A DNA stretch of 64,000 bases from Lentisphaeria bacterium (GTDB lineage Bacteria > Verrucomicrobiota > Lentisphaeria > Victivallales > Victivallaceae): assembly GCA_017508135.1 (NCBI GenBank), contig JAFVZN010000037.1:1-64000 (forward strand), read 5' to 3'. Numbering within the stretch: position 1 is the first letter of the stretch; each line of letters begins with the position of its first letter. Below, in pieces: positions 9,175 through 49,126 of this stretch. The notes beneath the pieces were generated by a model. That model did no database searches. It saw only the letters and a list, made by a program, of their open reading frames with translations, and was not told where the DNA came from. The translations under genes and the position numbers were made by a program.

Positions 9175-10104
9175 TTATAAAACGTCCTGCTTTCCATCAT
9201 CCTTTACTTCCCGGAGATAGGTGGTTTCGGTAAGATTCAATGCGGCAGTGAGGATGTTGCACTTTTTCTGATGGCGGTATGCTATGCGCCGCGAATTTTT
9301 GGAGTCGGTGGAAACCGGATAGGTCGGGCGGACGTGCTTTTTATTGCTGGAACTGTAACTTGCCGCACCGTATCCGTCCAGAATATACGGCACTTTGGAC
9401 GGATTGGAGATCGTGCCGAATTTCACCAGTGATTTGTGCGTGGAAATGGCGGCGTTCATGATGTACGATTTGGTGAGCAGGAGCGATGTGCTTGCCCACG
9501 GGATAGTCTCATCTTCACGCACTTCCGGACACATAAGGATCTTCAGACGATCAGATTCGTCGGTGGATTTTGTCGTTTTGTAAAGTTTTTTTGCCAGCCA
9601 GGTATCGCCGTAAAACCAGCCGCGTGAATTGCTGGAACTTGATGCCGTGTACAGTTCGTAGGGCATGTAAAAGCCGTTGAACTCATCCGCGTACTCCTGC
9701 ACGCAAATACCGATTTGCTTCAACTGATTGGCACAGGAGGTCGCCCGCGCCCGCCCCCGCGCCTGCTGCAAAGCCGGAAGCAGTATCGCTGCAAGTATGG
9801 CCATTATCGCGATGACAACGAGCAATTCTATCAAAGTGAAGGGCTTTATGGGAGAGGGGAAAAACTTCTTTTCACGGGAAAAGAGGTTTTTCCCCTCTCC
9901 CAAACCCTCTCCCTTTTTCAAGAAAAGCGGAGTATTTTGCGGCTCCAGTTTGTCGCCGCGCTTGAAAAAACGCATTGTTGAGATGAAAGTATCCACCAGC
10001 AATTCGATCAAAGTGAAAGGCTTTATGGGAGAGTGGATAACCTTCTTTTTTTTCAAGAAAAGCGGGGTGTTTTGTTCAGATGTGCATACTGTACGGATAT
10101 TCAT
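9175..10104 (-). CDS. prepilin-like secreted protein with duplicated leader
   Basis: A 309-residue protein with a type IV pilin/pseudopilin N-terminus. The full signal [20 protein letters not shown] begins near residue 92. A second, truncated copy of the leader motif ([13 protein letters not shown]) lies about 59 residues earlier, so two potential prepilin-peptidase sites exist in one protein. The residue before Phe is Pro in both, not the usual Gly. The mature domain starts with [25 protein letters not shown] as in DUF1559-like prepilins, but the C-terminal H-x9-DG motif is degenerate ([14 protein letters not shown]). GGAG sits 8 bp before the ATG at 10104. The leader contains a 16-bp perfect DNA hairpin. 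Confidence 0.8.
9821..10075 (-). repeat. 177-bp in-frame leader repeat (one full unit plus a truncated copy)
   Basis: AGCAATTC(T/G)ATCAAAGTGAA occurs at 9821 and again at 9998, exactly 177 bp (59 codons) apart. Each unit encodes the path FTLIELLV ... NTPLFLKK ... FFPSPIKP back to FTLIELLV. The full unit contains a perfect 16-bp inverted repeat (GGGAGAGGGGAAAAAC, 9850-9865, pairing with 9886-9901). The second copy lacks the hairpin centre. Confidence 0.85.
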
Positions 10105-15094: not shown

Positions 15095-15133
15095 ATAATG
15101 CCTTTCTAAGTTTGTAGTTTCATTCAAACTGCG

Positions 15134-15169
15134 GTGGCGCCACGTGGACAATCCCGTAAAATATTGTCC
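15134..15169. promoter_or_regulatory. paired palindromes upstream of the ExbB-like operon
   Basis: GTGGCGCCAC (15134-15143) is a perfect 10-bp palindrome. GGACAAT, 10 bp, ATTGTCC (15146-15169) is a perfect inverted repeat. Both lie 40-75 bp before the start of the operon on the minus strand and could be an operator; no regulator is known. Confidence 0.4.
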
Positions 15170-15170
15170 T

Positions 15171-15475
15171 TTCCGGCATAACCGGGTCAGTTTTTGCTAA
15201 GCTTTTTTTCAAAAAGCGATACCCCGCTTTTCTTTGCGTACTTTCTATTCCGGCATAACCGGGTCAGTTTTTGCCAAGCTTTTTTCCAAAAAGCGATACC
15301 CCGCTTTTCTTTGCGTACTTTCTATTCCGGCATAACCGGGTCAGTTTTTGCCAAGCTTTTTTAAAAAGCGATACCCCGCTTTTCTTTGCGTACTTTCTAT
15401 TCCGGCATAACCGGGTCAGTTTTTGCTAAGCTTTTTTCAAAAAAGCGATACCTCGCTTTTCTTTGCTTACTTTCT
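15171..15475. repeat. four tandem ~77-bp repeats, each with an intrinsic-terminator hairpin
   Basis: Units begin at TTCCGGCATAACCGG at 15171, 15248, 15325 and 15400 (periods 77, 77, 75). Each contains an AAAAGCG stem with CGCTTTT partner (15212-15231, 15289-15308, 15364-15383, 15441-15460). Read on the minus strand, which is the tRNA strand, each hairpin is followed by a T-run, as in a Rho-independent terminator. The array lies between the tRNA-Arg 3' end and the next operon on the same strand. No gene lies in 15095-15497. Confidence 0.85.
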
Positions 15476-15497
15476 TTTCTCGTGAAAAGAAAGTAAG
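15466..15497 (-). terminator. perfect 14-bp hairpin immediately 3' of tRNA-Arg
   Basis: CTTACTTTCTTTTC, a four-base loop, then GAAAAGAAAGTAAG, directly abutting the encoded CCA of the tRNA. It may act in 3'-end processing or as the first element of the terminator array. The core TTTTCACG(A/G)GAAAA is the same as the hairpin inside the prepilin leaders. Confidence 0.6.
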
Positions 15498-15574
15498 TGG
15501 TGCTCTCAGTGCGGTTCGAACGCACGACCTGCTCCTTAGGAGGGAGCCGCTCTATCCAACTGAGCTATGAGAGC
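15498..15574 (-). tRNA. tRNA-Arg (anticodon CCT)
   Basis: The minus strand folds into a full cloverleaf: acceptor GCTCTCA/TGAGAGC, D-arm GCTC...GAGC, anticodon stem GCTCC/GGAGC with loop CTCCTAA (anticodon CCT), T-arm GTGCG/CGCAC with TTCGAAC, discriminator A and an encoded CCA. It lies downstream of the lipoprotein and leuS genes on the same strand. Confidence 0.95.
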
Positions 15575-15577
15575 GGG

Positions 15578-16024
15578 TTATCTGTAAGCGGGAAAAGTGC
15601 CGGGTGCAGCAGAAGGGGCTGCGGGGGCAGAGATCCGGTTGACAGAGGGGTTATCGGTGGCGCGGAGTCTGAGATCGAAAGAGTTACCGGCGCCGATATC
15701 GTGTACGGAAATGGAAGTGTTGCGACGATAGAGGTTGTAGCTGAAGTTCCATTTTTTTGCGAGTTTTTTATCCATATCGAGCATGATGCGGCCATCGTCA
15801 TCGATGGAGAAGGAGCCAGCCCATATCCAGTAGTTGTTTTGGGAAGGGTCATCGGAAGGTTCACGCAGGCCGATAAAGATAAGGTCATTGTATACGGCGG
15901 CAAAGTCTTCTCTGCCGGGGAGAGAAGTTTCATACTTACCGTTGGAGAGTGTAAGGCTTCCGCAGCCGCAGATGAATGCGGAGATGAGAAGCAGGAAGAT
16001 GAAAGCGGAAAATTTGCGGACCAT
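15578..16024 (-). CDS. small lipoprotein of unknown function
   Basis: A 148-residue predicted lipoprotein: hydrophobic start (FSAFIFLLLISAFICGC) with lipobox Cys near residue 21. The mature part has a beta-rich pattern with YWIWAGSFSIDDDGRIMLDMDKK and ends in an Ala/Pro-rich tail. No family is recognised. GAGG lies 5 bp before the ATG. It follows leuS by 19 bp and may share its transcript, ending just before the tRNA-Arg gene. Confidence 0.7.
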   Translation of the reverse strand: MVRKFSAFIFLLLISAFICGCGSLTLSNGKYETSLPGREDFAAVYNDLIFIGLREPSDDPSQNNYWIWAGSFSIDDDGRIMLDMDKKLAKKWNFSYNLYRRNTSISVHDIGAGNSFDLRLRATDNPSVNRISAPAAPSAAPGTFPAYR

Positions 16025-46688: not shown

Positions 46689-47918
46689 TTATCTCCTCTT
46701 TTTCCGGCAGCGGAAAAGGTCATTCACCGTTTCCGCATCCCCGCCTCCGAACCAGCCGAGATCGTAATTTTCTGCCAACTCCCCTTCCGTGTATCCCCAT
46801 CCGCTCTGGCGGTAACTCAACGGACCGCAGCTTTCCACATGACCGTCCGCCCAGCCGATATTGACCCGCTTCCGGTGGCGGAAGTGCATCGTCGGCGCGG
46901 AACCGGTATACACTACTTCGTCCTGTCGCATCATTCCCGGCGCAAACAGGTCTATTTGCTCGTTGAACCGCCCACTGCTGTTGACACTGGCATGGTCGGC
47001 AAACATTATCGTCTTCCCCGGCTGTTGCAGCTGCGATGACTTCGCCGGTACCGGATTCATCCCCCGGTAATCGTAAGTCCCGATACCGACAGAATATCCA
47101 TATCCGCCCGTGCCGCTGTTGGTTCCGCTGCTGTACTCAAACAGCACCGACGGACAGTAACTTATCCCCGCTGCGTTGCCCATGTACTCTCCCAGCCCGC
47201 CACGACTCCTGACATCACTTATCCCCGCTTCCGGCATGCCGCACCAGTACCGGTACGGCGTATCCCATATCGCACTGTAAATGAAATATCCCGCATTGCC
47301 GCTCTCATACAGCAAATTCGCTGTCGTTATCTGCTTGAGATTGCTCAGACAATTCGCCCCGCGCCCCCTTTCTCTTGCACTCTGCAAAGCAGGAAGCAAA
47401 ATCGCCGCCAGTATCGCAATAATAGCAATAACCACCAGCAGTTCTATTAACGTGAAAGGCTTTATGGGAGAGGGGAAAAACTTCTTTTCACGGGAAAAGA
47501 GTTTTTTCCCCTCTCCCAAACCCTCTCCCCTTTTCAAGAAAAGCGGGGTATTTTGCTGCTCCCGTTGGTCGCAGCGGAACAGAAAACGTAATGATGAGAC
47601 AGTAGAACTTACCAGCAGTTCTATTAATGTGAAAGGCTTTATGGAAGAGGGGAAAAACTTCTTTTCACGAGAAAAAAAGTTTCCTCTTTCCCCCGCGCCC
47701 CCTTTCTCTTTCAAAAAAAGCGGGGTATTTTGCTGCTCCCGTTGGTCGCAGCGGAACAGAAAACGCAATGATGAGATAGTAGAACTTACCAGCAGTTCTA
47801 TTAATGTGAAAGGCTTTATGGGAGAGGGGGAAAAGAGGTTTTCCCCCTCTCCCAAACCCTCTCCCCTTTTCAAGAAAAGCGGGGGGTTTTTGTGTATTGT
47901 GCAGGACGATGTTTTCAC
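46689..47918 (-). CDS. prepilin-like secreted protein with tripled leader
   Basis: A 409-residue protein. The functional N-methylation signal [20 protein letters not shown] starts near residue 155. Two truncated copies ([21 protein letters not shown] and [21 protein letters not shown]) lie exactly 59 and 118 residues earlier. The mature domain ([24 protein letters not shown]) is of the DUF1559-like type and keeps the H-x9-DG motif ([17 protein letters not shown]). The likely start is GTG at 47918, 12 bp after the stop of the small lipoprotein gene; no ATG lies inside the leader. The residue before each FTLIE is Pro, unlike the usual Gly. It is in the cobalamin-riboswitch transcript, directly before the BtuF-like gene. 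Confidence 0.8.
47441..47890 (-). repeat. 177-bp in-frame leader repeats (two full units plus a partial)
   Basis: GTTCTATTAA(C/T)GTGAAAGGC occurs at 47441, 47618 and 47795, exactly 177 bp apart. Units contain inverted repeats: GGGAGAGGGGAAAAA (47466-47480) pairs with TTTTTCCCCTCTCCC (47503-47517) around TTCTTTTCACGGGAAAAGA; the middle unit has TTCTTTTCACGAGAAAA. They also share GAAAAGCGGGGTAT with the array beside tRNA-Arg, and CTGCTCCCGTTGGTCGCA with the third prepilin gene. Confidence 0.9.

Positions 47919-48172: not shown

Positions 48173-49126
<954 letters not shown>

Follow-up and report, generated by a model that had tools for sequence, protein, structure and literature searches.

A dispersed, probably mobile palindromic family beside a tRNA gene and in prepilin leaders of a Lentisphaeria bacterium

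The tRNA-Arg flank and the prepilin leaders

The window – the whole 64,000-nt stretch of DNA analysed here, to which all coordinates refer – carries a tRNA-Arg gene whose 3′ flank is occupied by a hairpin and a tandem array belonging to a repeat type that we call E2:

15498..15574, minus strand: tRNA-Arg, anticodon CCT, with its CCA end encoded at 15500-15498 (ARAGORN; Rfam tRNA model, 66.7 bits)
15466..15497, minus strand: E2 hairpin CTTACTTTCTTTTC-ACGA-GAAAAGAAAGTAAG, whose first base is the base after CCA (sequence; RNA fold)
15171..15479, minus strand: E2 tandem array, 4.0 copies of 77 bp (TRF)
15448..15461, minus strand: block GAAAAGCGAGGTAT in the first array unit (pattern search)
15371, 15296 and 15219, minus strand: block GAAAAGCGGGGTAT in the remaining array units (pattern search)

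Read on the tRNA-Arg strand, CTTACTTTCTTTTC-ACGA-GAAAAGAAAGTAAG is a perfect 14-bp hairpin followed by CAAAGAAAAGCGAGGTATCGCTTTTTT, and the 3′ flank has an RNA fold z of -5.3. A second hairpin, AAAAGCG-AGGTAT-CGCTTTTTT, lies 3′ of the first and is followed by Ts; by eye and by fold it fits a GC-rich hairpin plus T-run, and the terminator scan listed only plus-strand sites. The array unit is made up of the right hairpin arm, CAAAGAAAAGCGGGGTATCGCTTTTT (second hairpin) and a short CCGG hairpin. The first-pass annotation had placed the hairpin both just after the CCA end and in the array: the former is correct, but the complete hairpin is present only in the unit nearest CCA, the other units comprising the right arm plus the GAAAAGCGGGGTAT block. 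Arrays whose later units retain only the right arm occur here and in one same-genus genome. Across region 15100-15620 only the tRNA exceeded the Rfam gathering score, and E2 matched no family; a scan of the whole window at the gathering threshold listed nothing, though the tRNA-Arg had scored its 66.7 bits in the short-region scan.

The second setting is the leaders of prepilin genes, which harbour a related repeat type, E1:

46689..47918, minus strand: prepilin gene with three FTLIELLV motifs and E1 blocks between them (TIGR02532; reading frame; GTG start assumed)
47466..47575, plus strand: E1 copy in this gene's leader (long hairpin, C-rich linker, GAAAAGCGGGGTAT, hairpin B), antisense to the gene
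47643..47752, plus strand: second of this leader's E1 copies, 177 bp further (TRF 47434-47834, period 177)
47819..47895 (approximate ends), plus strand: third E1 copy of that leader, partial (translated reading)
48173..49126, minus strand: next prepilin gene (TIGR02532)
48946..49059, plus strand: E1 copy in the leader of that gene (sequence reading)
9175..10104, minus strand: prepilin gene with FTLIELLV duplicated around E1 (TIGR02532)
9850..9959, plus strand: E1 copy in the leader of that gene (sequence reading), with a partial copy at ~10030-10075

Two blocks had been reported as common to the prepilin leaders and the tRNA-Arg flank, and both are found there far above chance. Allowing at most one mismatch, the hairpin core TTCTTTTCACGRGAAAA has five sites in the window (9866, 15475, 47482, 47659 and 48966) against a mean of 0.00 in 100 shuffles, and the block GAAAAGCGRGGTAT has nine, against a shuffle mean of 0.07 and a maximum of 2; the shuffled-sequence test, named beforehand, thus sets the shared blocks clearly apart from chance level. 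Further copies were found through the whole genome: at the same mismatch limit AAAAAGCGGGGTAT gave 28 matches versus one for the reversed control (copies in the genome were counted through pattern, DNA and family searches). The translations SREKK and NTPLFLK, also reported at the outset, can indeed be read in the leaders. It is, however, the complement of the element that is translated, because the modules lie on the plus strand and the genes on the minus strand; the modules themselves occupy the non-coding strand.

E2 at gene 3′ ends

The E2 core has the form NNN-CTTTCTTT-loop-AAAGAAAG-N′N′N′-CAAAGAAA, and a longer form reads NNN-ACTTTCTTTTC-loop-GAAAAGAAAGT-N′N′N′-GCAAAGAAAAGCG.... In the same genome two such cores (CTTTCTTT...AAAGAAAG-CTTGG-CAAAGAAA) together with hairpin B lie directly 3′ of tRNA-Gly(GCC) (C22:2900-3523, 395-560). 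The pattern ACTTTCTTTTCNCGNGAAAAGAAAGT detects 77 stretches in GTDB species-representative genomes, spanning Lentisphaeria, Oscillospiraceae and other Clostridia, Nitrospirae, Hydrogenedentota, Proteobacteria, Lysobacteraceae and Verrucomicrobia; E. coli genomes gave no E2 match. BLAST located E2 in records labelled as plasmids, from Variovorax, Caballeronia, Paraburkholderia, Ilyobacter and Pasteurella, a looser pattern found it in 24 IMG/VR contigs, and Lak megaphages carry an E2-like hairpin, that of Prevotella phage Lak-B1 being ~86% identical to the tRNA-Arg hairpin. Some of the phage or provirus copies in IMG/VR sit 3′ of a GC-rich hairpin or T-run, as if behind a terminator and not a stop codon. 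Searches of the open-access literature, by sequence strings and by topic, found no published description of the repeat.

Public genomes provided a sample of 65 oriented copies of E2, and 44 of them adjoin the end of a gene. In 12 the element starts 0-3 bases 3′ of a tRNA (Arg, Tyr, Gly, Glu, His, Thr, Ser or Leu, in several phyla); in 17 an ORF stops at the stem foot or just ahead of it; and in 15 the ORF stops exactly at +28, at the TAA of the E2 right arm. For the two stop-codon classes a random control gave 145 of 3000 positions (4.8%). In Lentisphaeria and Clostridia the position is precise, either behind the tRNA CCA or at the stop codon. The housekeeping hosts of stop-codon copies include GroEL, GuaA, RlmD and HrpB; those with the stop at the stem foot include GroEL, GMP synthase GuaA (profile 512/512) and polynucleotide phosphorylase. 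Copies of the +28 class supply the host with both stop codon and tail – the proteins end ...LLSFHEKRK – and the curated profiles of these hosts end where E2 begins:

Amidase_3: profile 172/174, ending at residue 320; E2 start 320.7
SDR: profile 236/236, ending at residue 245; E2 start 246.7
Uup C-terminal domain: profile 68/69, ending at residue 643; E2 start 641.7
Phosphoglycolate phosphatase (PGP): profile 213/213, ending at residue 247; E2 start 247.7
HrpB_C: profile 130/133, ending at residue 799; E2 start 800.7

In some cases E2 takes the place of the final codons of its host gene. RlmD with E2, seen in two genomes (G020 and G003), ends HFETLTLLSFHGKRK or HFETLSLLSFHGKRK before the stop, that is ...HFETL(T/S)LLSFHGKRK; in 28 other same-genus orthologs RlmD is without E2 and ends a few codons past HFExxxxL. 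The two E2-bearing RlmD fragments are 71% identical to each other, and a copy common to two species at this distance could mean functional retention, not a selfish element. Occupancy likewise varies at the tRNA gene: the sister species RGIG4094 has the same array at the same place with three units, and the tRNA-Arg(CCT) flank is without the element in 11 same-genus genomes. Comparison with relatives for filled and element-free sites, as the first-pass annotation had proposed, therefore yields orthologous sites of both kinds, at the tRNA-Arg flank, at RlmD and in the prepilins discussed below.

The stem foot of E2 covaries. Of 72 copies, 71, 70 and 59 show pairing of the three bases outside the stem with the three behind it, against swap means of 46.6, 35.1 and 34.3, and this holds even where the outer bases are those of the host gene, as with CCA and TGG at tRNA-Leu. 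In copies from viruses and plasmids the loop is complementary to the stretch that directly follows CAAAGAAA, the run averaging 4.0 against 2.67 (0 of 2000 swaps); for 36 distinct loops taken from viral contigs the figures are 3.56 against 2.57 (0 of 3000 swaps). The negative controls – non-canonical pattern matches and a shifted window – carried no loop-pairing signal. Loop pairing was not significant in the Lentisphaeria-rich set, so we claim the pseudoknot for the wider family only, where the complementarity points either to an H-type pseudoknot or to alternative pairing.

So exact a position raises the question of whether E2 is chiefly a functional RNA 3′-end module – a terminator, a processing site or a protective pseudoknot – that is selected behind genes and is not selfish. 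We consider this possible, if doubtful. Its location immediately behind CCA and stop codons, the covariation of stem and pseudoknot, the strong fold at tRNA-Arg (z = -5.3) with the second hairpin following, and the RlmD copy common to two diverged species are all as such a module would have them; yet E2 is patchy, most genomes of the genus lacking it at the corresponding tRNA or gene, no T-run directly follows the first hairpin, some copies displace the last host codons, and the related E1 lies antisense within the coding region of prepilins. Function as a terminator or 3′-end protector and the nature of a mobile element may both hold. We also put forward, tentatively, that E2 could represent a class of structured mobile element that crosses phyla and has not been recognised before: insertion would be guided to gene 3′ ends, with the foot pairing across the insertion point, the loop pairing behind CAAAGAAA into a pseudoknot, and the element either replacing housekeeping stop codons or sitting behind the tRNA CCA. 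If true, this raises the question of which machinery finds a gene's last codon or the base after CCA.

Two subfamilies and the prepilin leaders

E1, the GGGGAGGGG type, has first the long hairpin GGGGAGGGGAAAACTTYTTTTCACGRGAAAARAAGTTTTCCCCTCCCC; a C-rich linker with CAAGAAAAGCGGGGTAT at its end then leads to a second hairpin, B, in which the stem sequence varies but stays paired (GTTTGC-TCCCGTTGGTC-GCAAAC, GCTGC-TCCCGTTGGTC-GCAGC, CCGC-TCCGTTGTC-GCGG). Exact AAAAGCGGGGTAT occurs 30 times in one same-genus genome and six times in another, matches to the tRNA flank region number up to 46 per same-genus genome, and several contigs of the present assembly terminate within or beside E1. Copies outside prepilins, where a gene can be assigned, lie 3′ of the stop codon in sense orientation, with the hairpin core 27-65 nt past the stop and mostly at 33-35.

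E1 and E2 have in common the hairpin core and the GAAAAGCGGGGT(A/G)T block, arranged in the same order and orientation, as well as a related hairpin B. Judged from sequence comparison, the two common blocks in the same order and the similar hairpin B point to homology, although module exchange between unrelated repeats would give a similar picture. It is unlikely that the blocks in the tRNA flank and the prepilin leaders belong to unrelated repeats, short AT-rich palindromes made alike by convergence. Stem lengths differ, as does the distance from hairpin to block (<10 nt beside the tRNA versus ~40 nt in prepilin copies), and E1 lacks both the exact CAAAGAAA linker and the pseudoknot pairing, all of which convergence would accommodate; blocks of 17 nt and 14 nt in the same order and orientation, with shuffle expectations of 0.00 and 0.07, and the related hairpin B with TCCGTTGTCGC that then follows in both types, speak against it. 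Our reading is that the tRNA-side array and the prepilin-leader hairpins are probably two subfamilies of one dispersed palindromic family – short, non-coding, non-autonomous, mobile and REP-like – whose copies spread as DNA; E1 is the derived, G-rich subfamily. Dispersal, structure, patchiness between orthologs, precision at gene ends and in-frame placement in prepilin leaders are directly visible in the family.

The first-pass annotation had envisaged a single palindromic family tolerated in protein leaders and RNA flanks. The family, its in-frame copies and its place beside RNA genes hold; the singular does not, since there are two subfamilies, the tRNA-side one reaching beyond this genome into several phyla. 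That subfamily does lie beside tRNA genes, as one case of a wider docking at the 3′ ends of genes, stop codons included.

Type IV prepilins are made with a basic leader that prepilin peptidase cleaves off, as it is expected to do here. Of 37 distinct prepilin genes recovered in this genome, 14 have E1 within 45 residues before FTLIELLV. These copies are antisense, in frame and upstream of FTLIELLV, and every leader copy seen, here and in the sister species, is in frame. FTLIELLV is repeated around an E1 block in five of the 14 genes, making six adjacent pairs; the duplicated copies agree on average at 21.5 of 24 bases, versus 18.5 of 24 (sd 1.9) between genes, a comparison of only six pairs. 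The sister species RGIG4094 has many prepilins with E1, including two orthologs, with mature parts 96.7% and 85.6% identical (122 and 111 residues), that carry E1 there and are without it here; a further ortholog has two tandem E1 blocks of unlike make-up. E1 presence, copy number and variant thus change between related species. RGIG4094 also has another insert, SKTCQICVSLLF..., at the same FTLIELLV/V site, and several unrelated blocks use that codon junction.

These observations bear on whether the leader repeats were selected as peptides, a SREKK-rich basic leader being useful and spread by duplication of prepilin genes. In-frame copies and the basic character of prepilin leaders fit such a history, but we think it very improbable. 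The same hairpin DNA, read in different frames, is translated as NFFSREKK by the majority of copies and as TSFPVKRS or LSFPVKRK by the rest, and FTLIELLV is nonetheless rejoined in frame: the sameness is at the level of DNA, not peptide. Moreover, sense-oriented intergenic copies of the same DNA lie 3′ of unrelated genes, and two pairs of prepilins, with 97% and 86% identity over part of the mature region, differ in the presence of E1.

Known systems and the route of spread

In kind the family is closest to REP elements, and by the defining tags it lies outside the GTAG and CGTC super-families. Like GTAG REPs of the REP/RAYT system (PMC3733652; PMC2817692), its members are short, multi-copy and hairpin-forming, mostly 3′ of genes with some copies within genes, and the termini of GTAG REPs, too, may supply the stop codon of a flanking ORF (PMC3733652). 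Unlike them, the family has no GTAG tag, and no RAYT accompanies it in this genome or in several copy-rich relatives (incomplete assemblies); E2 further differs in the covariation of its stem foot with outside bases, in its extra conserved CAAAGAAA strand, in its loop pairing, and in its exact docking at the tRNA CCA.

The analogy drawn at the outset was with Rickettsia palindromic elements, for which, as for CGTC repeats, a CGTC end tag is reported (PMC3733652), along with an in-frame case (PMC5656822). In lifestyle the likeness stands: both are palindromic, inserted in frame in coding sequence and present as non-coding copies, E1 being ~110 bp long. It fails at the tag, CGTC being present in one of 65 E2 copies, and in setting, since here a single gene family holds the coding copies, antisense and within its cleaved leader, and E2 lies at gene ends. 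Intrinsic terminators resemble the family as hairpins right behind genes, and the second tRNA-Arg hairpin is followed by Ts; the first E2 hairpin, however, has no T-run, is conserved in sequence across phyla and is patchy among orthologs. MITEs are likewise non-autonomous, structured and patchy between orthologs, but for E2 no parent transposon (the autonomous relative searched for being PF01797), terminal inverted repeats or target-site duplication was shown; for E1, an 8-codon FTLIELLV duplication flanks some copies.

It would be natural to ask whether the hairpins are copied as REPs are, by a RAYT, that is, a Y1 tyrosine transposase. The family is palindromic, extragenic and multi-copy, and GTAG REPs also often provide stop codons for flanking ORFs (PMC3733652). 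We hold this candidate mobiliser to be highly improbable and disfavour it: searches for Y1_Tnp (PF01797) gave 0 matches in this genome and in the E2-rich relatives G003, G009, G011 and G014 (assemblies 54-94% complete) and identified no mobilising enzyme there, and the GTAG tag is at the stem foot in 0 of 65 E2 copies. An integron attC site was considered because the hairpin follows a stop codon.

As to dissemination, no transposition event at base-pair resolution and no clean target-site duplication was seen. Under the two-subfamily reading, copies would spread as DNA and persist where they are least harmful, at gene 3′ ends and in the cleaved-off prepilin leader, and the hairpins, once transcribed, may serve to terminate or shield the RNA. 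Copying could be effected by a transposase acting in trans, or by recombination between copies; the spread of E1 and the FTLIELLV duplications would plausibly stem from exchange among dozens of prepilin genes at their near-identical FTLIELLV stretches.

If this is true, a common structured element has remained uncatalogued though it alters housekeeping C-termini (the LLSFHEKRK tails), lies at tRNA gene 3′ ends across several phyla, and takes up the leaders of a large family of pilins in a gut bacterium and its sister species. The leaders would offer a natural test of genome tolerance to in-frame repeats where the product is cut off, and the element would account for broken assemblies and for odd leaders and tails in Lentisphaeria protein annotation.

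Other repeats accompany E1 in its own genome. On contigs C62 and C36 the long E1 hairpin is split by GCCGAACGTCGGCACCGG, a smaller nested palindrome. Some tandem E1 copies on contigs C24 and C62 have, in place of the first hairpin, a CTTCAC-spaced palindromic repeat (CTTCACATTGCAAAGCAATTCTTCACG...) of another repeat family. A further repeat, around CGTCTTGGAATAGTGATGCGAGGCGGTTG (at one locus the related CGCCTCGCATCACTATTTCAAGACGAGG), directly adjoins E1 copies.
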